From Neorhizobium sp. NCHU2750 (GTDB lineage Bacteria > Pseudomonadota > Alphaproteobacteria > Rhizobiales > Rhizobiaceae): 64,000 bases of DNA. Of this stretch, positions 31,516 to 41,776 are shown piece after piece. The translations under genes were made by a program, and so were the position numbers. The notes beneath the pieces were generated by a model that saw nothing but the letters and a program-made list of their open reading frames with translations, did not search any database and was not told the DNA's origin. Position 1 is the first letter of the stretch. Every line of letters begins with the position of its first letter. Where the stretch lies: positions 3,721,001-3,785,000 of the forward strand of contig NZ_CP030827.1 in NCBI RefSeq assembly GCF_003597675.1, given 5' to 3'.

Positions 31516-32916
31516 TCAGAGATAAGCGATGGCCAGGACGAGCAGAAGCGAGCTCGCCATGACCGTCACGGCGAACGCGCCGTTCCACCTGAGCACGATC
31601 GTCGTGGCCGAGGTGGATGTCAGGCGTGCCATGGTAATCGTCATGGCGCTGATGGGTGAAAGCGCGATACCCGCCGCCCAGCCGAGCGAAAGTGCCAGCG
31701 CCAAAAGTATCGGATGCGCATTGCCGAAAGCGGCCGCTCCGAACAGCTGAGCCAGGAATACGACGACGATCGAATGCGGGATGAACAGCACGGCGCTTGC
31801 CGCGATGGCAAGGATACATGATCCTGCAAGCAGCGCCGGCGGCAGCTGGTTGAGCTCACCCATGAAGCTTCCACGCCCTTCAAGCAGCACAACGGCCGTC
31901 GCTCCGATCACGCTGGCCGACAGGTAGATGGCACTTTCGGTCCGCATCGCCGCCATGTTGCCGATCATCGCCTTGATCTCGTGTCCCATGCGCCGAACCG
32001 GCACATGCTGTTCGTAATGCACCCATCCGATGGCAAAAAGCGGCAGGACGATCAGCGATGCGACGAGCGGGCTGACGTCGAGCACCGCATGAAGCGCCAT
32101 CGTGCAGGCAAACAGGCCGAAACAGGCGCAGAGCGTGATCATCAACGGCAGGACGGACGGCTGATCGTCGACATCATCGGCGCCGACGACAACCAGCTTG
32201 CCCGTGGTTTCCGTGTGGAAGATCGTGGTGATCACCACCAGCGCGATGGTCGTGGCGAATGCAGCGATCACGAAGGCGGTCGGGGCCAGATTGGGGATCG
32301 ACTGGGTGATGATGGCAAAACCGACACCGAGCGGCGACCATATCGTCATCAGCACCGTGCCACGCATGGCAGCGAGCAGGATGGACCGGCGCTCGCCCTG
32401 GCGGTCGGTGCCTTCGGTGGCACGTGCCACCATCTGGCCGATCAGCGAGATGATGCCGATATTGAACAGCAGGCTCAACAGATGGCTACCCACCTTGACC
32501 GCCTGATAGCGGCGGCGGCCGGGCATGCTCATCAGATACTCCGCCGCATTACGGATAATCTCGGACCGGCCGACGGCATAACGCAGCATGCCGAGCATCG
32601 ACAGGAAGGATGAAAAGCCGACGCCCTGGTAAAGCGCCTTTTCCACCATCACGGCCTTTTCTGCAGGCAGCAGCAGTTCCGACGCAAGCAGCAGGATGAA
32701 CGCCGCGGAAACGAAGGTCTTGGCAATGACCGCCAGCCTCGTCCAGCCGGACAGCACTGCGACGATCGCCATCACGGATGCCACCTGGAACATCAATGGC
32801 GGCGCACCGGTGACCTGAGCGACCGTGTAGACCATAGCGCCTGCAAAGGTCAGCCCGTCGGCAAGTGTCATCACCTGTGTCTTTTGCGGCGCGGCAACGG
32901 CCGGGACGTTACTCAT
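31516..32916 (-). CDS. Polytopic membrane protein, permease-like, family not recognised
   Basis: The 466-residue product has roughly 11-12 hydrophobic segments with few charged residues inside them. Intramembrane prolines and glycines in WSPLGVGFAIITQSIPNLAP and the repeated SLGWAAGIALSPISAMTI segment suggest a secondary transporter of the ion-transporter type (two similar halves with re-entrant loops), but no family signature is certain. The N-terminal 15 residues are polar and cytoplasmic. It is transcribed in the same direction as ghrA, 186 bases downstream of it, with a 15-base palindrome in that gap. It may carry an organic acid, but that is a guess from context. Confidence 0.7.
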   Translation of the reverse strand: MSNVPAVAAPQKTQVMTLADGLTFAGAMVYTVAQVTGAPPLMFQVASVMAIVAVLSGWTRLAVIAKTFVSAAFILLLASELLLPAEKAVMVEKALYQGVGFSSFLSMLGMLRYAVGRSEIIRNAAEYLMSMPGRRRYQAVKVGSHLLSLLFNIGIISLIGQMVARATEGTDRQGERRSILLAAMRGTVLMTIWSPLGVGFAIITQSIPNLAPTAFVIAAFATTIALVVITTIFHTETTGKLVVVGADDVDDQPSVLPLMITLCACFGLFACTMALHAVLDVSPLVASLIVLPLFAIGWVHYEQHVPVRRMGHEIKAMIGNMAAMRTESAIYLSASVIGATAVVLLEGRGSFMGELNQLPPALLAGSCILAIAASAVLFIPHSIVVVFLAQLFGAAAFGNAHPILLALALSLGWAAGIALSPISAMTITMARLTSTSATTIVLRWNGAFAVTVMASSLLLVLAIAYL

Positions 32917-33102: not shown

Positions 33103-34023
33103 CTAATAACCGACGGCACGATCGACAAGCCCCTCGGGTCGCTCGCCTCGCTCGAAGGCCTCGATCGAACGCAGCACATGGCCGGTACCGGCAACGGGAT
33201 CGACCCAGCTTGCGATATGCGGGGTGACGGTGATGTTCGGCTCGGTCCAGAACGGGTGGTCGGCCGCCAGCGGCTCCTTGCGGAAGACATCCAGCATGGC
33301 CCCGGACAGATGGCCACTGCGCAGCTGCTCGAGCAGATCCTCCTCGACAAGCTGCTCGCCGCGCCCGGCATTGATCACATAGGCGCCCTTGGGCAGGGCC
33401 GAGAAGGTGTCGCGGTTGAGGATCGAGATCGTTTCCTGCGTATGCGGCAGAAGGCTGATGAGAATGTCGGTTCCGGAAAGAAAGGGCAGCAATCCGCTTT
33501 CGCCGCCGAATACCTCGATGCCGGCAACCGGCCGGCCGCTTCTGTTCCAGCCCCGTATCCTGTAGCCCATGGCAGAAAGCACCTTGGCAGACGCCTGCCC
33601 GAGGCCGCCCATGCCCATGATGCCGATCCGCGGGCTGACGAGATCCAGTTTCTGCCAGACCTTGTCAACTTGGTTGGCGCGCATACCCTCCATCCGGCGG
33701 TGATGATTGACCACCGCCATGACGACATATTGCACCATGCCCTCGGTGATCGACGTGTCGACCATCCGCACGATCGGCAGATGCAGCGGTATGGTATCGT
33801 CACTTAAGAGGTGATCGACCCCCGCCCCCAGAGAAAATACCGCCTTGAGATTGGGATAGCGGGCGATCTCATGCGCACCGGGCGCCCAGCAGAGAACATA
33901 GTCCACCTCTTCGAGCGGGCCGGTCTCGGGCCAGGCATGCACGGTAAGATCGGCAGCCTGGGCGGCGAAAGCCTGTTGCCAGGGAGCCGTCGGGGCGGTT
34001 TTTCTGATGATGACGAGGCTCAC
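33103..34023 (-). CDS. ghrA: Glyoxylate/hydroxypyruvate reductase A (GhrA-like)
   Basis: A 306-residue D-2-hydroxyacid dehydrogenase. The Rossmann motif GMGGLGQASAKVL is near residue 140; the catalytic residues are in INAGRGEQLVEEDLL (Arg), DVFRKEPLAADHPFW (Glu) and VTPHIASW (His). The short N-terminal domain with SLGAGVDHLL is typical of GhrA, which reduces glyoxylate and hydroxypyruvate with NADPH. The start is GTG at 34023 with GGAG 6 bases before it. It lies 107 bases after the binding-protein gene of the amine dehydrogenase operon and may belong to that pathway; a large hairpin sits in the gap. Confidence 0.85.
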   Translation of the reverse strand: MSLVIIRKTAPTAPWQQAFAAQAADLTVHAWPETGPLEEVDYVLCWAPGAHEIARYPNLKAVFSLGAGVDHLLSDDTIPLHLPIVRMVDTSITEGMVQYVVMAVVNHHRRMEGMRANQVDKVWQKLDLVSPRIGIMGMGGLGQASAKVLSAMGYRIRGWNRSGRPVAGIEVFGGESGLLPFLSGTDILISLLPHTQETISILNRDTFSALPKGAYVINAGRGEQLVEEDLLEQLRSGHLSGAMLDVFRKEPLAADHPFWTEPNITVTPHIASWVDPVAGTGHVLRSIEAFERGERPEGLVDRAVGY

Positions 34024-34130: not shown

Positions 34131-35180
34131 TTATTGCTCGATCAGCTTGTTCCAGCGGCTGTTCCACTCGGCCCGCTTGGTGTTGATCGCATCCCAATCG
34201 AGGACGACGGCGGTCTTCATATAGGTCTGGAAGGCGGCAAGCTTGGCCTGGCCCTCCGGCGTCGAGGAAACGGCCTTCGGGTTGGACGGATAGACGTCGC
34301 CGGCATCGAGCGCCTTCGACTGCGCGTCGGCCGACATCAGGTAGGCGGCGAGCTTCTGCGTCAGTTCCGGCTCGTTGTTCTTGGCAATCGTGCAGGCGGT
34401 ATACATCAGCACGACCGAACCTTCCTTCGGCTGCGCATATTCGACCGGAATATTCTGCGCCTTCAGCGTGTTGACGGCCGTCGGCGTCAGCGGGAAGATC
34501 GCGGCTTCGCCCGACTGCGTCATTTCGGAGATCTTGGCCGAGCTCGGAATATATTCGATGACGTTCTTGCCGATCATGTCGCTGAACTTGGAAAAGCCGG
34601 GTTCGACATTGGTTTCGTCACCACCCTGGATGCGGTTGAACATCAGGAAGGCATGCAGGCCAAAGGAGGATGCGGAAGCCGACTGGAAGACGACCTTGTT
34701 GGCGAATTTCGGATCGGCGAAATCCATCCACGATGTCGGCGGTGCCCAGCCGTTATCGGCAAACACCTTGGTGTTGTAGGCAATCCCGGTCATGCCCATG
34801 TTGATGCCGACAGCCATGTCGTCCTTCATCCGCGCGGCCTTGTCGACTTCACGCAGTTCCGGGCTGTCCTGCAGCTTCTCGCAAAGGCCGAGCCCGATGG
34901 CGCGCACCATGATGCCGTCGTCGAGGAACATCAGGTTCATCTGCGGCGCGTCCTTCGAAGCGGTCGCCTTGGCCAGGATGTCGGCCGAGGTACCCGGCAC
35001 CACGACGATCTTCACGTCATTGGCCTTTTCGAAGGCAGGAAAGACCGCATCGGTGAAAGTGCGCTCGAGATTGCCGCCGTTCATCCCGACATAGAGGGTC
35101 TTCGTCTCGGCATGGGCGGAGCCCGCAACGGTCAGGCATGCGATGCTGGCGGCAAGTGCCGCATAGATGGATTTCATCAT
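34131..35180 (-). CDS. ABC transporter substrate-binding protein (family 1, polyamine/opine type)
   Basis: A 349-residue periplasmic protein. The signal peptide is MMKSIYAALAASIACLTVAG ending AHA. The mature part has LYVGMNGGNLERTFTDAVFPAFEK, GTSADILAK and the DPKFANKV, AAYLMSADAQ segments of PotD/AfuA-like binding proteins. The ATG directly abuts the stop codon of the FAD subunit upstream. It is the last clear gene of the seven-gene operon; placing the binding protein last is uncommon. The ligand is unknown, but co-transcription with an amine dehydrogenase suggests an amino acid derivative or opine. Confidence 0.85.
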   Translation of the reverse strand: MMKSIYAALAASIACLTVAGSAHAETKTLYVGMNGGNLERTFTDAVFPAFEKANDVKIVVVPGTSADILAKATASKDAPQMNLMFLDDGIMVRAIGLGLCEKLQDSPELREVDKAARMKDDMAVGINMGMTGIAYNTKVFADNGWAPPTSWMDFADPKFANKVVFQSASASSFGLHAFLMFNRIQGGDETNVEPGFSKFSDMIGKNVIEYIPSSAKISEMTQSGEAAIFPLTPTAVNTLKAQNIPVEYAQPKEGSVVLMYTACTIAKNNEPELTQKLAAYLMSADAQSKALDAGDVYPSNPKAVSSTPEGQAKLAAFQTYMKTAVVLDWDAINTKRAEWNSRWNKLIEQ

Positions 35181-36350
35181 TCACGTTCCCCTTGGTTCGA
35201 GGCTCTCTTGCAAAGCGCCGGCGCCCGAGCCCTGGGCGGCGCCGACGGAAAAACGGGTGATCGCAAAGGAGTCGATCGGTGTCGTGGCCTTGCCATCGGT
35301 AACAAGCTCGGCGATCACTTCGCCGACGCCCGGCGCGATCTGGAAGCCGGCGCCGGAAAAGCCGAAGGCATGGATCAGCCCGGCCGTGGTACTGCTTGCG
35401 CCGATCACCGGGTTCTTGTCCGGCATCGCACCTTCGGTCCCGGACCAGAAACGGATCGCATGGGCATGCTTGAGCGAAGGAAAGAGCTGCGCCGCGCGCT
35501 GCATGACGACGGATACGCCCTCGGCCGTCGGCCGCGAGAAATCCTCGTTGTCGGCGCGCGCCAGACCGCGTTGGCCACCGATGATGCAATTGCCGCGCTC
35601 GACCTGCCGGGCATAGACATTACCGCCCTCGACGCCGGTATTGACCGTCATGAACACCTTCATCGGTTCGGTGACGATCATCGACGGATAGATCCGCCCG
35701 AGCGGCACACCCTCGCCGAAGGCATCCGCAAACGGCCCGGCCCAGGCGCCGGCGGCATTGATGAGATGCGCCGCACGGATCTGCGGCATGCCCTGCGCCT
35801 CGACGAGAAAGCCGTCCTGCTCCTTCGACACGCCGAGAACCGGGGTCTGCTCGAACACCTGAACGCCCGCCCGCCTTGCGGCCGCAGCAAACCCGGCCGA
35901 GACGAGCCGGGGGTTCGCCTGTCCGTCATCCGCCGAAAACGACGCGCCGACGACGATGCTGCGGTCGATCCACGGAAACCGCTCCGCAAGCGCATTGGCG
36001 CCGAGCAGCTCGAGCTTCAGATCCGAAGTGGCAGCCACCCTGGCATAGTCCTCGAGCGAGGCCATCTCCGCCTCGCTGCGGGCAAGCTTCAGCTGACCGG
36101 TGCGGCGGAACTCTCCGTCTATGCCGATCAGTTGCTGGAGTTTCGGCCATATCGCATGCGCCCGCTGCGCCAACGGCAATTGATGCGTCGGGCGCCCCTG
36201 GCGGCGCACCCCACCATAATTGACACCGCTTGCCTGCGCACCGCAGAAGCCGCGCTCGAGAAGTGCAACCGACAGGCCCTTGTTTTTCAGCGCCAGAGCC
36301 GCCGAACAACCGACCAGCCCCCCGCCGATAATGGCGACATCGACCTTCAT
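35181..36350 (-). CDS. FAD-dependent D-amino acid/opine dehydrogenase small-chain subunit (DadA/HcnC/OoxB-like)
   Basis: The 389-residue flavoprotein starts MKVDVAIIGGGLVGCSAAL, a dinucleotide-binding GxGxxG motif, and continues as a glycine/D-amino acid oxidase (DAO) domain ending with RFWSGTEGAMPDKNPVIG and HAFGFSGAGFQIAPGVGE. In HcnABC, opine oxidase and D-hydroxyproline dehydrogenase this subunit holds the amine-oxidising active site. The ATG at 36350 overlaps the previous stop by 4 bases; the ORF extends upstream within that gene but without meaning. It is membrane-associated or cytoplasmic as part of a complex. Confidence 0.85.
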   Translation of the reverse strand: MKVDVAIIGGGLVGCSAALALKNKGLSVALLERGFCGAQASGVNYGGVRRQGRPTHQLPLAQRAHAIWPKLQQLIGIDGEFRRTGQLKLARSEAEMASLEDYARVAATSDLKLELLGANALAERFPWIDRSIVVGASFSADDGQANPRLVSAGFAAAARRAGVQVFEQTPVLGVSKEQDGFLVEAQGMPQIRAAHLINAAGAWAGPFADAFGEGVPLGRIYPSMIVTEPMKVFMTVNTGVEGGNVYARQVERGNCIIGGQRGLARADNEDFSRPTAEGVSVVMQRAAQLFPSLKHAHAIRFWSGTEGAMPDKNPVIGASSTTAGLIHAFGFSGAGFQIAPGVGEVIAELVTDGKATTPIDSFAITRFSVGAAQGSGAGALQESLEPRGT

Positions 36351-37753
36351 TGCGCAGCCTCCCCGCTCATGCCGGACGCCGGCTCGGAAAGCGAAATCGG
36401 CAAAGGCTTGACCGGCGCCTGCCCGCGCAGGCGACCGACGGCGGCTATCGGCCGCCCGGTCGACACGGCGAGAAGCTCGGCTGCCGCAGCACCACAGACA
36501 CGGCCCTGGCAACGCCCCATGCCGACGCGGCTCACCGCCTTAAGCCGGTTCATCTCGACGATGCCGAAATGATCGGTGGCATTGCGGATCGTCGCCACGT
36601 CGATCTCCTCGCAGCGACAGACCATGGTCTCGCCCGGCAGATCGGCGATCCAGTGGGCCGGAAACGGAAAGGACTGTTCGAGAACATTGCGGAAGGCGAA
36701 GATCTTCTGAAGTTTCCGCTCGATGAAGCCGGCACGGCCGGCATCGACGCCAAGGCCACGATCCTCGATCAACGACAGCGCGGCGCGCTCGCCGGAAAGC
36801 TCGGCGGCATCGGCACCGGCAATGCCGGACCCGTCACCGGCGAGATAGACGCCAGCGACGGTTGATCGCCGGGCGGCATCGACTTCCGGCAGGAAGACAC
36901 GGTCCCGTTCGTTGAAGGCGAACTGGCAACCGGCAAGATCGGCAAGCTGGGTTTCCGGCTTGAGCCCGAGCCCGAAGCCTGCGCCATCGCATGACAGGTG
37001 CCGGCGCTTGCCTCGCGCCTCGAACGAGACGCCCTCGACACGGCCTTTCCCCTCGAAGCAAAGCTTGGTGATCCCATAATGGAAAGCCACGCCCTTCATC
37101 ATCATGTCGGCCACGAAGCGCGTGCCGCGCATGACGACGGCGGGAAAGGACGACAGTGCCTTGGTCATGGCCATCTGGGCGCTGAAAGGCGCCGCATCGA
37201 GCACCGCCACGACCTTCACACCGGCCTTCATATATTGCCAGGCGACCAGATAGAGCAGCGGCCCCGTGCCGGCAAACACGACGCGCGAACCGATAACGCA
37301 GCCCTGCGCCTTCAAGGCGATCTGCGACCCGCCGAGCGAGAACACGCCGGGAAGCGTCCAGCCGGGAACCGGCAGGATCCGGTCCATCGCGCCTGTCGCA
37401 AGAATCAACCCGTCATGCGGAAGCCGCCGGTGGCTGCCATTCGTCACCACCTCGGCAACCCCATCCGACAGGCCCCAGACGAGACTGCCCGGCAGATAAT
37501 CGAGCTTGCCCTGCAGCCCTTCGAATTCCCGATGCAGTCGTTCGGCCTTCGGCGCCTCCGATCCATAGCGCGCCCTGGCGTTTCGTCCATCCGGCACGAG
37601 CGGCTGGCGATAGATCTGGCCGCCGCATGCCGGCGCCTCGTCGACGACGATCGGGCGAAGCCCTGCCCTGACGAGCGTGGCGGCAGCACGAATGCCGGCC
37701 GGGCCAGCACCGACGATCAGCGGCTGGCCGCGGTCTTGTGTACCGCCGCTCAT
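36347..37753 (-). CDS. NAD(P)/FAD-dependent oxidoreductase subunit with BFD-like [2Fe-2S] domain (HcnB/OoxA-like)
   Basis: From ATG 37753 the product is 468 residues. It has an N-terminal IVGAGPAGIRAA FAD motif, an internal FAGTGPLLYLVA second dinucleotide site, GVYLAGDGSGIAGADAAELSG, and a C-terminal four-cysteine cluster (VCRCEE plus GMGRCQGRVC) of the BFD iron-sulfur type. This matches HcnB, octopine/nopaline oxidase subunit A and D-hydroxyproline dehydrogenase beta subunits, which pass electrons from the amine site to the respiratory chain. The start overlaps the ferredoxin-like gene stop by 4 bases, so the long upstream frame extension is rejected. Confidence 0.87.
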   Translation of the reverse strand: MSGGTQDRGQPLIVGAGPAGIRAAATLVRAGLRPIVVDEAPACGGQIYRQPLVPDGRNARARYGSEAPKAERLHREFEGLQGKLDYLPGSLVWGLSDGVAEVVTNGSHRRLPHDGLILATGAMDRILPVPGWTLPGVFSLGGSQIALKAQGCVIGSRVVFAGTGPLLYLVAWQYMKAGVKVVAVLDAAPFSAQMAMTKALSSFPAVVMRGTRFVADMMMKGVAFHYGITKLCFEGKGRVEGVSFEARGKRRHLSCDGAGFGLGLKPETQLADLAGCQFAFNERDRVFLPEVDAARRSTVAGVYLAGDGSGIAGADAAELSGERAALSLIEDRGLGVDAGRAGFIERKLQKIFAFRNVLEQSFPFPAHWIADLPGETMVCRCEEIDVATIRNATDHFGIVEMNRLKAVSRVGMGRCQGRVCGAAAAELLAVSTGRPIAAVGRLRGQAPVKPLPISLSEPASGMSGEAAQ

Positions 37754-38040
37754 GCCCGCTCTCCCGCGCCTGTGATGACCTTCATTCCCTCGGCGAGCGG
37801 GGTCGAACAGGCACGAACCCGTTCGCCGCTTTCCAGCGTCACCCAGCAGTCCTGGCAGGCCGACATCTGGCAGAAGCCGGCGCGCGGCTCCTGGGTGAAG
37901 TCGCTCGGCCGCAGCATGTCGTCCACGGTGAGGATGGCGCTGAGCAGCGTGTCGCCACGCCGTCCCTCGCAAGGCTTTCCGTTCAGCACGAAATGCAGCG
38001 GAACTTCATTCTGTCGCACGATGCGATGCAGCAATGGCAT
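37750..38040 (-). CDS. (2Fe-2S)-binding subunit of the amine dehydrogenase complex (HcnA-like)
   Basis: A 96-residue protein with the plant-type ferredoxin cysteine spacing C-x4-C-x2-C (GFCQMSACQDCW) and a fourth cysteine in VRACSTP. Residues 15-40 give the beta-grasp start (VLNGKPCEGRRGDTLLSAIL). It equals HcnA or the gamma subunit of heterotrimeric opine/hydroxyproline dehydrogenases. Gene order small Fe-S, FAD/Fe-S, FAD is the same as hcnABC. Confidence 0.87.
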   Translation of the reverse strand: MPLLHRIVRQNEVPLHFVLNGKPCEGRRGDTLLSAILTVDDMLRPSDFTQEPRAGFCQMSACQDCWVTLESGERVRACSTPLAEGMKVITGAGERA

Positions 38041-38046
38041 GGCGGT

Positions 38047-38841
38047 TCATTTCTGCCCGACGAGGATACGGTCCAGTCCGAATGCCCGGTCGAGCACGAG
38101 CATGGCGACACCTGTCAGGGCGATCATCAGCGCGGACACGGCAGCCATCATCGGATCGATGGATTCCGTCGCGTACATGTACATCCTGACCGGCAGCGTA
38201 ACGGTCTGGGGTGAGGTGACGAAGATCGACATGGTCAATTCGTCGAAACTGTTGATGAAGGCGAGCAGCCACCCGCCGGTAATGCCGGGCAGGATCATCG
38301 GCACGGTGATCCGCCGGAACACGGTAAGCGGCCCCGCGCCGAGCGTCAGCGCCGCCTGCTCGGCATTGCGGTCGATGCCGGTCAGCGCTGCCATGACGAG
38401 GCGCAGCACATAAGGCGTGATCACCACGACATGGCTCGCCACCAGCCAGCCGAAACTGCCCGTGGCGCCGATCAGCGAGAACAGGCGCAGCAGCGCGACG
38501 CCGAGCACCAGATGCGGGATGATCAGCGGCGACAGGAAGAGCCCGTTGAGGAAGCCACGCCCCGGAAAGGTGTAGCGAGAGATCGCAATGCCGGCCGGCA
38601 GCGAGATCAGCACGGAAATCGTCGCCGACAGGGTCGCGAGCCACAGGCTGTTGTAGAAGGACGTCATGAAGTCCGGATGGACGAACACGGCCTTGAACCA
38701 GCGCAGTGAGAATTCCGTCGTCGGGATGGTGAGCGTGCTGTCGGGCGTGAACGCCACGAGACAGATGATGACGAGCGGCGCCAGCACGAAGCAGACGACG
38801 AGGCCGTGAAAGATGAGGGCGATGGGTCCGTTGCGTTCCAT
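38047..38841 (-). CDS. ABC transporter permease (PotC type)
   Basis: A 264-residue inner membrane protein with six hydrophobic segments and the EAA loop EQAALTLGAGPLTVFRRITVPMILPG between the fourth and fifth. It is the second permease of the polyamine/opine-type importer. It begins 11 bases after the first permease gene and ends 6 bases before the ferredoxin-like gene. Confidence 0.88.
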   Translation of the reverse strand: MERNGPIALIFHGLVVCFVLAPLVIICLVAFTPDSTLTIPTTEFSLRWFKAVFVHPDFMTSFYNSLWLATLSATISVLISLPAGIAISRYTFPGRGFLNGLFLSPLIIPHLVLGVALLRLFSLIGATGSFGWLVASHVVVITPYVLRLVMAALTGIDRNAEQAALTLGAGPLTVFRRITVPMILPGITGGWLLAFINSFDELTMSIFVTSPQTVTLPVRMYMYATESIDPMMAAVSALMIALTGVAMLVLDRAFGLDRILVGQK

Positions 38842-38852
38842 GTGCTTGCCCC

Positions 38853-39707
38853 TCAGCCCAGAACCTTGCGGGCGCGCGCCTCGATCATCCGGTTATAAGC
38901 CAGCATGATCAGAAGGTTGGCGACGAGCACGATGAAGGCGATGGCGGCACCGAGCGGCCAGTTCAGCTCGTGCATGTATTCGTCATAGACGACGGTTGCC
39001 GCCATCTTCAGCCGGCGTCCGCCGAGCAGGCCGGGAATGGCAAACGAGCTTGCCGAAAGGCCGAACACGATCAGGCTGCCGGAAAGGATGCCGAGCGAGA
39101 TCTGCGGCAGGATGATCCGCCGCATCGCCGTGAAGCGCGACGCGCCAAGCGACCATGCCGCCGGCTCAAGACCGGGATCAAGCTTCTGGATCGCCGTCCA
39201 GACGGGGATGATCATGAAGGGCAGCATGACATGGACGAGCGCGATCACGATCGCCGCCTCGCTGTAGAGGATGCGCAGCGGCCCGAAGCCCAGCATGATG
39301 CTTGCCTTGGAAATCAGCCCCGTCGAGCCGAGCAGCATGCTCCATCCGAAAGACCGCACGACGACCGAAACCAGCAGCGGCCCGATGATGACGAGCAGGA
39401 AGATCGACCGCCAGGGGTTCCACATCCTCGACAGGATATAGGCCTCCGGCACGCCGATCGCGACACAGATGATCGTGGTGATGAGCGAGATCTGCAGCGT
39501 CCGCCAGAAGATCGACAGGAAATATGGGTCCGACATCACCGTCGTGTAGTTCGACAGCGTGTAGGTGGGCAGCACGCCAGTATTGTAGTCATAGGCGTGT
39601 ACGGAAAGGATCGCCGTCAGCACCAGCGGCAGGATGACCATGCCGACGAAGAAGATCAGGCCGGGTGTCGACAGGAACCACGGCAGGCCGGAACTGCGCG
39701 CTGTCAT
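38853..39707 (-). CDS. ABC transporter permease (PotB type)
   Basis: From ATG 39707 the protein has 284 residues, six membrane segments and the EAA motif EPAAWSLGASRFTAMRRIILPQISLG. The ATG overlaps the ATPase stop by 4 bases, so the 20-residue upstream extension is not used. It pairs with the 38047-38841 permease to form the membrane channel. Confidence 0.88.
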   Translation of the reverse strand: MTARSSGLPWFLSTPGLIFFVGMVILPLVLTAILSVHAYDYNTGVLPTYTLSNYTTVMSDPYFLSIFWRTLQISLITTIICVAIGVPEAYILSRMWNPWRSIFLLVIIGPLLVSVVVRSFGWSMLLGSTGLISKASIMLGFGPLRILYSEAAIVIALVHVMLPFMIIPVWTAIQKLDPGLEPAAWSLGASRFTAMRRIILPQISLGILSGSLIVFGLSASSFAIPGLLGGRRLKMAATVVYDEYMHELNWPLGAAIAFIVLVANLLIMLAYNRMIEARARKVLG

Positions 39708-40774
39708 GCGCCGGCCTCCGCAGGCGCCTTGGTGAGAGGCGAGACGCGCGCGCTTTGCGGCAGCCATGACAGGCCGACCGCTTCGCCTTCGGATGCCGGA
39801 AGGGCGCCACCATCGCTGTTGGGCCAGGACACGACGATCTGGCCGACCGCGGTATCGACGTTGAACAGCCAGTGGCTGCCGAAGAAGAACCGCGCCTTCA
39901 CCACGCCATGCAGATGCCCGCCGCCCGGCGGCAGGATGGTGATCCGCTCGGGACGTAGCGACAGGACAGCCGGCTCGCCCTCGGCGGCGGAACAGTCTCT
40001 CGCCGGCAGGATGACGCCGGATGCCTCGATGCCGAACTTGCGCGCCCGCCCGGAAATGCTGTTCATCTTGCCGATGAAGGAGGAGATGAATTCCGTCGCC
40101 GGCCGGTCGTAGACGGCGTAGGGCGCATCGGCCTGCGTCATCTTTCCATGTTCCATGACGACCACCCGGTCGCTGATCGACAGCGCCTCGCCCTGGTCAT
40201 GCGTCACCATGATCGTCGTGGTGCCGACCGTCTGCTGGATGCGCCGGAGTTCGAACTGCATCTCCTCGCGCAGCTTGGCGTCGAGATTGGAAAGCGGCTC
40301 GTCGAGAAGCAGCACCGGCGGCTCGATCACCAGGGCGCGGGCGATCGCCACGCGCTGGCGCTGGCCACCCGAAAGCTGGCGCGGATAGCGGTCGGAAAAC
40401 CGGTCGAGCCTGACCAGCGAAAGCACCTCCGCCACGCGCTTGTCGCGTTCGGCCTTGGCTACCTTGCGCATCTCCAGCCCGAAGCTGACATTCTGCGCCA
40501 CCGTCATATGCGGGAACAGTGCATAGGTCTGGAACACGATGCCAAGCCCGCGGCGGTTCGGCTTTTCACCCGTGATATTGCGGCCATCGAGGGTGATCGT
40601 GCCGGCCGTCGGTTCGACAAGCCCGGCAATCATCTGCAGCGTCGTCGTCTTGCCGCAACCGGACGGGCCGAGCAGCGAGACGAACTCGCCCTTGCTGACT
40701 TCGAGATTGACCGCATCGACGGCAGTGAAATTGCCATAAATCTTCGACAGCGAATTGAGCGTCAGAAAGCTCAT
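39704..40774 (-). CDS. ABC transporter ATP-binding protein (PotA type)
   Basis: The 356-residue ATPase has Walker A GPSGCGKTTT, Q-loop VFQTYALFPHMTV, signature LSGGQRQRVAIARAL, Walker B VLLLDEPLSNLD and the H-loop VTHDQGEAL, then a TOBE domain with LRPERI. It is the first gene of the operon. ATG 40774 with GGAG 6 bases upstream is preferred to the GTG two codons earlier. It is divergent from the iclR-type gene across 168 AT-rich bases. Confidence 0.92.
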   Translation of the reverse strand: MSFLTLNSLSKIYGNFTAVDAVNLEVSKGEFVSLLGPSGCGKTTTLQMIAGLVEPTAGTITLDGRNITGEKPNRRGLGIVFQTYALFPHMTVAQNVSFGLEMRKVAKAERDKRVAEVLSLVRLDRFSDRYPRQLSGGQRQRVAIARALVIEPPVLLLDEPLSNLDAKLREEMQFELRRIQQTVGTTTIMVTHDQGEALSISDRVVVMEHGKMTQADAPYAVYDRPATEFISSFIGKMNSISGRARKFGIEASGVILPARDCSAAEGEPAVLSLRPERITILPPGGGHLHGVVKARFFFGSHWLFNVDTAVGQIVVSWPNSDGGALPASEGEAVGLSWLPQSARVSPLTKAPAEAGA

Positions 40775-40863
40775 GTCCACTCCAGTAGCGCCGTTTTGCG
40801 CTTTTCTAATTTCGTTCCCGAAATTGAAGAGACAGCAAGAAACTGGAAATGGTCAACAAAAAA

Positions 40864-40896
40864 TTCCAAATGGAAAAATTATCGTTGAAATATTTC
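40864..40896. promoter_or_regulatory. Candidate IclR-type operators in the divergent region
   Basis: Two palindromes lie between the ATPase gene and the IclR gene: TTCCAAATGGAA (40864-40875, arms TTCCA/TGGAA) and GAAATATTTC (40887-40896). A half-site TGGAAAT precedes them at 40844-40850. The IclR family consensus TGGAAATnATTTCCA shares these half-sites, so the local regulator probably binds here and controls both directions. Confidence 0.55.
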
Positions 40897-40942
40897 GCTA
40901 TATGTAATTCATGACCGATATCGGCGATTTGGATTACGATAA

Positions 40943-41776
40943 ATGGATGACGAAACACCACAGATCTCCAGCGCGAGGCGCGCCCTGATTGTGCTGAAGG
41001 CCCTGGCCGGTGCCGATGGCGAGGGCATGCGGCTGATCGATGTGGCGAAAACGGTCGGTTGCAACCAGCCGACGGCGCATCGCGCCATGCAGGATCTGGT
41101 TGCCGAAGGCTTCGTCGAACAGGTGGCAGGCGGCAAGCGCTATCGCCTGGCACTCGAATTCTTCGTACTCGCCGCCCGCGCCGGACGCACCGATGGCCTG
41201 CGCGAACTGGCGCGGCCGGCGCTTCTGCGCCTTTCGTCCACCTTGACCGACACCATCTTCCTTCTGGTGCGCAACGGCTATGATGCGGTCTGCCTCGATC
41301 GTGTCGAGGGTCCCTTCCCGATCCGCTCCTTCACCGGCGATATCGGTGGCAAGGTACCGCTCGGCATCGGCCAGGGCAGTACCGCCATCCTGGCAAACTT
41401 GCCGGAGGCCGAACGCGAGGCGGTGATCAAGTTCAACATGCCAAGGCTTCTCGACCGCAGCCATGTCGACGAGGCGAGCTTCCGGCTTCTGCTCGCCAAT
41501 GCGCGCGAACAGGGCTTCGTCAGCTTCAATGCCGGCCTCATTCCCGGCATGGCGGGCGTGGCCGTCCCGGTTTGCGATGCGAGCGGCACCGCCGTGGCGG
41601 CACTCAGCGTCGGCACGCTTGCCGAGCGGGCACAGGGGGAAAGACTACAGGCCATGGTCGACATTCTGGCAGCCGAGGCCCGCGAACTGGGACGCAGGAT
41701 CAACCCCTTCGATCCCGCTTTGCGCTCGCCGTCGCGCAGCCTCAGCTACGTACAGGCGCAGACCCGCCCGCTCTGA
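40943..41776 (+). CDS. IclR family transcriptional regulator
   Basis: A 277-residue protein with a winged helix at residues 10-65 (RALIVLKALAGADGEGMRLI, CNQPTAHRAMQDLVAEGF) and a C-terminal IclR effector domain (VCLDRVEGPFPIRSF, LGIGQGSTAILANLPE, GMAGVAVPV). It is divergent from the transporter-dehydrogenase operon and is its likely regulator, responding to the imported substrate or a product. It ends 5 bases before the convergent mrpG gene, with no terminator between them. Confidence 0.9.
   Translation: MDDETPQISSARRALIVLKALAGADGEGMRLIDVAKTVGCNQPTAHRAMQDLVAEGFVEQVAGGKRYRLALEFFVLAARAGRTDGLRELARPALLRLSSTLTDTIFLLVRNGYDAVCLDRVEGPFPIRSFTGDIGGKVPLGIGQGSTAILANLPEAEREAVIKFNMPRLLDRSHVDEASFRLLLANAREQGFVSFNAGLIPGMAGVAVPVCDASGTAVAALSVGTLAERAQGERLQAMVDILAAEARELGRRINPFDPALRSPSRSLSYVQAQTRPL

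Follow-up and report, generated by a model that had tools for sequence, protein, structure and literature searches.

A conserved operon combining a Pot-type importer with a type-2 flavin/Fe-S dehydrogenase in a Rhizobium-like genome, and its possible role in the catabolism of a lysine-derived amine

As far as the available text of Watanabe et al. 2015 goes (PMC4575208), the family of heteromeric flavin/Fe-S dehydrogenases falls into two halves, termed OpnDH type 1 and type 2, and type 2 is close to the archaeal L-proline dehydrogenase. In the same text, the OdhAB2C enzyme of Bradyrhizobium (the published Odh genes being bll7190-7193) displays an octopine activity with a Km of 19.5 mM, and the exchange of the beta subunit is described as able to change the substrate specificity in this family. 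Here, we report on a seven-gene operon located at positions 34131-40774 (minus strand) of a 64,000-nucleotide stretch of Neorhizobium sp. NCHU2750 DNA (contig NZ_CP030827.1, positions 3,721,001 to 3,785,000; hereafter the window), which belongs to a Rhizobium-like genome of 6.35 Mb. The genes, in the order potA-potB-potC-gamma-alpha-beta-potD, encode a Pot-type ABC (ATP-binding cassette) importer and a three-subunit dehydrogenase, and they are flanked by a divergent gene for an IclR-type regulator; all of them were found where an earlier note, made from the DNA letters, had placed them. We favour, with moderate confidence, the view that this is a dedicated catabolic operon serving to import a lysine-derived amine and to oxidise it to aminoadipate semialdehyde. 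Judged from its sequence, the dehydrogenase is a separate type-2 branch of the known family. Apart from the opine dehydrogenase paper, taken to the extent of its available text (PMC4575208), a literature search covering titles and abstract openings yielded no description of the operon, and the same search yielded no biochemical data for the clade of this enzyme.

The earlier note had likened the architecture of the locus to those of HcnABC, the octopine and nopaline oxidases (Oox and Nox) and D-hydroxyproline dehydrogenase (LhpBEF), and it had called for a phylogeny of the subunits. As reference beta subunits we used Nox and Oox from annotated Ti plasmids, HcnC found by name look-up (with its identity confirmed by names for L214), LhpBEF picked by their proline-racemase-family neighbours and, for OdhB2, orthologues with the B1-C-A-B2 layout from Bradyrhizobium, Rhizobium and Pseudomonas, not bll7190 itself. 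In the midpoint-rooted tree of beta subunits (86 rows), the deepest split (support 99/98) separates the HcnC, LhpB, NoxB, OoxB and OdhB1 types from the OdhB2 type and the window beta, the program warning of long branches that meet (Hcn with the Nox and OdhB1 rows; Lhp with all type-2 rows). The window beta thus does not join HcnC, LhpB, NoxB or OoxB: it stands on the opposite, type-2 side, on a branch separate from the OdhB2-type subunits, within its own clade of cassette-bearing loci (support 100/100), which also holds L068 and L078, where the importer is of the Opp type and a GhrA gene directly follows beta. It is 36% identical to the OdhB2 type versus 27-31% to the HcnC, LhpB, NoxB, OoxB and OdhB1 types, in keeping with the claim that it groups with no enzyme of known substrate. 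The proposed likeness therefore holds at the level of the flavin/Fe-S dehydrogenase family and not as interchangeability, since this beta lies across the deepest split and lacks the Arg residue of type 1. In a quick search of the alpha tree, the window alpha fell with the cassette rows, and the OdhB1 and OdhB2 rows were intermixed because both share one alpha. The best solved-structure match of beta is 1y56_B (E 2.8e-40), and alpha also matches 1y56.

The two halves of the tree also differ at position 306 of beta, after the RXW motif, which is Arg in all type-1 rows (20/20) and Glu in all rows of the cassette clade (28/28) and of the OdhB2 type (7/7). By motif, the 66 type-2 rows divide into 55 Glu, 10 Asp and 1 His, and RXWXGXE is found in the beta genes of all 96 cassette loci presented below; the row counts for type 1, the cassette clade and the OdhB2 type were made after removal from the cassette set of L187_3, the same protein as L195_9 of an Opp-type locus, which is mislabelled as a cassette in the beta tree. 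Position 306 aligns with the Arg of the GLRPGT motif of the Bacillus glycine oxidase, which we take to be Arg302, the ligand of the substrate carboxylate. Because this type-1 Arg column is Glu or Asp in type 2, type-2 enzymes probably hold their substrates differently from type-1 enzymes, as far as an alignment can tell, and we suggest the replacement of the conserved Arg by Glu or Asp as the difference between the halves of the HcnC/OdhB family.

The location of beta in the OdhB2 half of the tree and its Glu where type 1 has Arg are likewise consistent with a strict opine dehydrogenase, which would convert an N2-carboxyalkyl amino acid (octopine or a relative) to an amino acid and a 2-oxo acid, as Bradyrhizobium OdhAB2C, for which the available text reports octopine activity (PMC4575208). 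Moreover, a homologous PotDABC importer is encoded at the Bradyrhizobium OdhB1-C-A-B2 loci L142, L143, L144 and L153, the identities to the window proteins being 52-54% for potA, 49-50% for potB, 52-55% for potC and 39-41% for potD. We nevertheless regard this explanation as rather improbable: the OdhB2-type subunits form a separate branch and are 36% identical; the octopine Km implies that the natural substrate of even OdhAB2C may differ (PMC4575208, available text); and an opine dehydrogenase does not predict the link to piperideine-6-carboxylate metabolism described below. In addition, RidA, arginase and ornithine cyclodeaminase gave no match in the window in tblastn searches at 1e-5 with one or two representatives per gene as queries. 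The same searches returned neither an NAD opine dehydrogenase nor a hydroxyproline epimerase in the window, which upholds the remark that the usual partner genes (hydroxyproline epimerase, ornithine cyclodeaminase, arginase) are missing.

Counting loci of at least 9 kb, with a beta of at least 46% identity and an importer adjacent to it, we found beta next to the same Pot-type importer in 96 loci, 92 of which contain an IclR-like gene, so that this arrangement (the cassette) is not a chance one; its recurrence supports the earlier suggestion that transport and oxidation are dedicated to one compound. The loci, fetched with beta as a bait, came from named genomes (80 of 94 loci kept), plasmids and further genomes; L069 and L279, though cassette-like, were left out of the 96 owing to broken gene calls, the calls in GC-rich DNA being made by a simple codon-usage script that is unreliable in some stretches. 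The cassette ranges over Alphaproteobacteria, Burkholderiales and Pseudomonas, its carriers being Rhizobium, Bosea, Chelatococcus, Microvirga, Phyllobacterium, Bradyrhizobium BTAi1, plasmids of Ensifer and Azospirillum, Polaromonas, Limnohabitans, Burkholderia, Caballeronia and Pseudomonas. The nearest beta copies occur in a Rhizobiales isolate (87% identity) and Rhizobium wenxiniae (86%), and an orthologous beta (85-87%) is present in three of the 56 genomes of the same genus (G007, G041, G056). More widely, beta matches were obtained in 25/385 genomes of the window's class at 1e-70 (the window's genome G000 included; not all are cassettes), in 9/300 genomes from the order of Polaromonas G104 and, at 1e-95, in 34/399 genomes from its family, G104 being counted in both. 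An alpha of 50-55% identity occurs in 26 of 59 Pseudomonas genomes; the loci opened with full flanks comprise six complete cassettes (L192, L193, L194, L196, L197 and L073, i.e. G102) and the different locus type of G218 (L195), the other 19 of the 26 genomes not having been opened. We took as chance neighbours the TIM-barrel, PfkB and phosphoglucose isomerase genes near the Bosea cassettes, and likewise the genes for a molybdopterin oxidoreductase and a DUF6929 protein that follow the Ensifer cassette.

Among the genes flanking 64 loci (cassettes in 62 cases, together with L068 and L078), clustering brought out two that recur, one for a GhrA-like protein and one for an aldehyde dehydrogenase. 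The latter encodes the L-piperidine-6-carboxylate (P6C/aminoadipate-semialdehyde) dehydrogenase: all five copies scanned (L244, L246, L257, L261, L280) pass the NF050084 model (763-831 bits; cut-off 730), the other 21 being assigned by their 56-73% identity to the L246 copy. First, within the fetched flanks (up to ~10 kb), the P6C dehydrogenase occurs in 26/96 cassette loci versus 1/82 loci with other alpha-beta-gamma trios, two of the 82 having been fetched twice (Fisher 3e-7, ignoring relatedness); all 26 are Burkholderiales. Second, an aminotransferase is found in 12/96 cassette loci and an HGLS-family (2-oxoadipate) gene also in 12/96, versus 0/82 other trios in both cases, and 11 of the 26 P6C-linked loci possess both a class-I aminotransferase and an HGLS-family gene. 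Third, the link, first noticed in Polaromonas, Ralstonia, L244 and L246, reappeared in 15 of the 28 cassette loci of a second sample, from Burkholderiaceae, chosen by beta similarity alone (of 34 hits among the family's 399 genomes, three were known from before and one was dropped because it lay at a contig edge; the 30 others were opened and gave 28 cassettes). Fourth, the P6C dehydrogenase gene is next on the operon strand after potD in L261, L280, L246 and L067 (the four gaps being 10, 12, 83 and 100 bases) and immediately before potA in L244 and L257; in L069 (Sheuella amnicola), outside the count of 96, it follows potD by about 40 bases.

In lysine breakdown, aminoadipate semialdehyde is converted to aminoadipate, then to 2-oxoadipate and to D-2-hydroxyglutarate. 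The P6C dehydrogenase, aminotransferase and HGLS genes represent the steps from the semialdehyde to D-2-hydroxyglutarate, the HglS step being documented in the available text of PMC7286885. The HglS proteins of L246 and L282 score above the equivalog cut-off; the copies from Polaromonas and L244 are short relatives, and the two that were scanned score 81.9 and 89 bits with PF07063. Such short HGLS-family proteins (~340-360 amino acids, or 315 for the L257 copy, which is at the edge of its locus), distinct from canonical HglS, stand beside an aminotransferase in L054, L056-L060, L080, L244, L257 and L259. A thiamine-pyrophosphate enzyme beside the P6C dehydrogenase in L266 and L270 was considered as a glyoxylate carboligase and dismissed, only a generic subfamily being above cut-off; L272 and L277 have similarly placed 562-amino-acid genes, which were not scanned.

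Since the P6C dehydrogenase, aminotransferase and HGLS genes lie near some of the Burkholderiales cassettes, the enzyme would probably yield aminoadipate semialdehyde, and we propose the following pathway. The Pot-type importer would take up one lysine-derived secondary amino acid, its genes being present and its ligand presumed. By analogy with OpnDH and D-hydroxyproline dehydrogenase (PMC4575208, available text), the membrane-associated alpha-beta-gamma enzyme would oxidise the C-N bond in beta and deliver the electrons to the respiratory chain by way of flavins and Fe-S clusters. The product, as the Burkholderiales neighbour genes suggest, would be aminoadipate 6-semialdehyde, in equilibrium with piperideine-6-carboxylate, to be used by the aminoadipate semialdehyde dehydrogenase and, where present, by the aminoadipate aminotransferase and the 2-oxoadipate enzyme; IclR presumably senses the substrate or the product. 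The unknown amine or opine of the earlier note can be narrowed, by the Burkholderiales links, to a lysine-derived secondary amine, a compound probably made from lysine rather than a classical crown-gall opine.

Two kinds of substrate come into consideration. An N6-carboxyalkyl-lysine (N6-carboxymethyl-lysine or saccharopine) is our tentative first choice, and L- or D-pipecolate is a possible, though doubtful, second one; the former is ranked slightly ahead, with evidence that is indecisive between them. Pipecolate fits because beta is akin to L-proline dehydrogenase, the oxidation of pipecolate at C6 resembling that of proline at C5; 1y56_B, which we take to be the archaeal L-proline dehydrogenase, acts on the ring carbon remote from the carboxylate. 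Lysine conjugates are placed slightly ahead because the importer is shared with the OdhB2-type loci, the acidic residue is conserved and the same Pseudomonas genomes contain AmaA, a pipecolate oxidase. In its most specific and less probable form, our proposal is that free N6-carboxymethyl-lysine or saccharopine might be imported and then split by the three-subunit flavin/Fe-S dehydrogenase, with aminoadipate semialdehyde and an amino acid as the products, by a widespread and undescribed route. Carboxymethyl-lysine is a long-lived glycation product, i.e. an advanced glycation end product, and pipecolate is a plant immune signal. If true, soil and rhizosphere Proteobacteria would have an operon dedicated to the catabolism of advanced glycation end products or lysine opines; if the lysine link holds, these genes would gain a testable place in lysine-derived metabolism.

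At the level of whole genomes, the P6C dehydrogenase is present in 33/38 genomes with the cassette or its clade; of the genomes with no match to the enzyme, 2/20 in the order of G104, where many of the 20 are small, and 8/10 in Pseudomonas have it. As it is nearly universal in Rhizobium, its presence is uninformative there. In favour of the lysine link, a search at 1e-200 in G104, G728 and G813 gave no P6C dehydrogenase other than that of the cassette locus, and an AmaA-type pipecolate oxidase is not found at 1e-80 in G104 or G728, G813 giving a match below the cut-off. AmaA exceeds its cut-off in 7/44 genomes with the cassette or its clade, all seven being Pseudomonas, and is without any match at 1e-80 in 22/44 (G104, G925-G927 and G728 included). 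Several points weigh against a lysine-derived substrate for the window operon. The P6C link is absent from all opened cassettes of Alphaproteobacteria and Pseudomonas; 70 of the 96 cassette loci lack the P6C dehydrogenase, which, by beta clusters at 75% identity, accompanies 7/24. As all linked loci are Burkholderiales, we infer the substrate of the window operon solely by orthology, across ~50-57% beta identity. No P6C dehydrogenase appears at 1e-200 in the remaining five of the 38 genomes, which do have the enzyme: four of the Limnohabitans type (G919-G922) and Paracandidimonas. An AmaA or AmaA-like gene lies beside the P6C dehydrogenase in the tested Pseudomonas cassette genomes and in Rhizobium G000, G106 and G107, so a second L-pipecolate enzyme would be redundant there; in the window's genome, the P6C dehydrogenase (C1:3809920) and the adjacent AmaA-like gene (443 bits; cut-off 600) are ~24 kb outside the window. 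Finally, an aminoadipate semialdehyde product leaves unexplained the GhrA-like gene beside the window operon.

This gene (33103-34023, minus strand; PF02826 above cut-off), which the earlier note did not mention, encodes a GhrA-like D-2-hydroxyacid dehydrogenase on the same strand, 107 bases downstream of potD, and is probably the last gene of the operon. It directly follows potD in all four same-genus copies opened (the window, L025, L026 and L043), also occurs at L242, L245 and L246, and directly follows beta in L068 and L078 of the cassette clade. These observations would suit a substrate that releases glyoxylate or hydroxypyruvate, to be reduced by the GhrA-like enzyme, for instance an N-carboxymethyl amine such as iminodiacetate or strombine. 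We hold such a substrate to be unlikely, since GhrA-like genes are near 7/96 cassettes versus 8/82 other trios (Fisher p 0.6) and in 4/24 cassette clusters, and none of the five GhrA-like copies scanned passes the GhrA cut-off, the window protein reaching 238 bits with this best NCBIfam model (cut-off 403). GhrA as a clue for the whole cassette (9/64 loci) was accordingly demoted, being equally common near other trios. Further downstream, positions 31516-32916 encode a 466-amino-acid protein, membrane-like by eye and without a Pfam or NCBIfam match at 1e-3, which is not beside the operon in L025, L026 and L043.

The operon genes are tightly packed, with 4-base overlaps for potA/potB, gamma/alpha and alpha/beta, and gaps of 11 (potB-potC), 6 (potC-gamma) and 0 (beta-potD) bases, and each of the eight proteins, IclR included, has at least one Pfam family above cut-off. 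The IclR-type regulator (40943-41776, plus strand; PF01614 and PF09339) is separated from potA by the presumed control region (40775-40942). The importer consists of a PotA-like ATPase (39704-40774, minus strand as all the following; PF00005 and the TOBE_2 family PF08402; ATG start at 40774, a GTG 6 bases upstream being an alternative), a PotB-like permease (38853-39707; PF00528, scanned in a longer frame to 39767, with the start placed at the ATG overlapping the potA stop), a PotC-like permease (38047-38841; PF00528) and the SBP_bac_8 periplasmic binding protein potD (34131-35180; PF13416; N-terminal signal-like stretch by eye), i.e. all the components of the Pot type. None of the NCBIfam models in the scan results reaches its cut-off for these proteins, the nearest transporter models being those of polyamine and 2-aminoethylphosphonate systems.

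The adjacent gamma, alpha and beta genes show the features of heteromeric flavin/Fe-S dehydrogenases (CX4CX2CX11-12C, a BFD-type Fe-S site, two GXGXXG and RXW). Gamma (37750-38040; PF13510) is a small [2Fe-2S] protein with a CX4CX2CX12C motif. Alpha (36347-37753; PF07992 and PF04324), an HcnB/OdhA-like protein with FAD and a BFD-type [2Fe-2S] site, has two GXGXXG motifs and CXCX33CX4C; its X33 spacing compares with the X15-20 printed in the available text of PMC4575208, and the Nox, Oox, Hcn and OdhA-type alphas scanned likewise have 32-33. Beta (35181-36350; PF01266, 250.7 bits), the catalytic DAO-type flavoprotein of type 2, has GXGXXG and RXW motifs; the Pfam scans of alpha and beta were run on frames longer than the final gene calls. 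The DAO family match and the automatic name of beta, 'sarcosine oxidase subunit beta', given to a catalytic subunit whose cassette recurs in Rhizobiales, Burkholderiales, Azospirillum and Pseudomonas, might point to the ordinary oxidation of sarcosine, glycine or a D-amino acid. This appears very unlikely: the NCBIfam models of sarcosine oxidase, glycine oxidase and N-methyltryptophan oxidase are far below their cut-offs, and no folate or formaldehyde genes were noticed among the annotated neighbours, where no dedicated search was made.

Related trios occur in other settings. The window's genome contains a paralogous trio (about C1:1299270-1301880, L145:8276-10878, read from the list of open reading frames), whose beta stands at 47% identity. 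Downstream of this trio come the genes for an SBP_bac_3 protein, two permeases and a Dak1 protein; upstream of it lie MmgE/PrpD and IclR-like genes. A related trio accompanies an SDR dehydrogenase and an Opp-type importer (SBP_bac_5) in L070, L074, L076, L083, L154-L156, L223, L225, L227 and L228, several of which have an IclR-like gene. The loci L195, L198, L199, L200, L240 and L249 combine a trio with a distantly AmaA-like DAO protein, a HAD hydrolase and an Opp-type importer, some of them also encoding a GhrA-like protein, an M20 peptidase or a dehydrogenase of the succinate-semialdehyde type; this group perhaps serves a conjugate of the gamma-aminobutyric acid type. In L093 and L097 (clade mates L088 and L096), the trio is preceded by an argininosuccinate-lyase-family gene (~500 amino acids) related to 6g3d; this Lyase_1/ASL_C2 gene before gamma was rejected as an ethylenediamine-disuccinate-lyase-like clue, as the L093 copy passes the argininosuccinate-lyase model and the clade is a neighbouring one.

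Compared with the known systems, the window operon resembles HcnABC in gene order and domain make-up; its beta is 29% identical to HcnC, from the other half of the tree, and no Pot-type importer gene was called beside the Hcn loci opened. NoxAB and OoxAB share the domain make-up and the adjacent opine import genes, but differ in their beta-gamma-alpha order, their NocPTQM/OccTPMQ-type importers and their type-1 beta. The window's genome has a classical opine system besides the operon, a nopaline-catabolism (noc) region outside the window (contig C5:24000-42000, L146). It contains nox genes as well as genes for ornithine cyclodeaminase and arginase, and over 15.2 kb it matches pTiC58 at 93% identity. 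LhpBEF has the same domain make-up, but a beta-gamma-alpha order beside proline-racemase-family genes and a type-1 beta. AmaA, with AmaB, would supply the same next enzyme, the P6C dehydrogenase, but is a single DAO protein, the window beta scoring 69.6 bits with the AmaA model (cut-off 600). The archaeal heteromeric L-proline dehydrogenase (1y56) provides the best solved beta match and an alpha match; we know of no importer for it. 1y56_B has Tyr at aligned position 306, where the window beta has Glu, and the subunit fusion differs according to the available text of PMC4575208. The Bradyrhizobium-type Odh loci have a homologous PotDABC importer, but also a second beta, RidA downstream, no gene called IclR-like and a beta on a separate branch. 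More generally, the OdhB1-C-A-B2 loci L142, L143, L144, L153, L149, L203, L205 and L250 bear an importer homologous to that of the window, with a RidA-family gene in all but L250, and Pseudomonas L149 additionally has PfkB, sugar-isomerase-like and LacI genes. Bradyrhizobium OdhAB2C and Burkholderia BtOdhC-A-B (PMC4575208) share with the window enzyme the alpha, beta and gamma subunits and a type-2 beta with Glu, BtOdh also being reported to have the same gamma-alpha-beta gene order.

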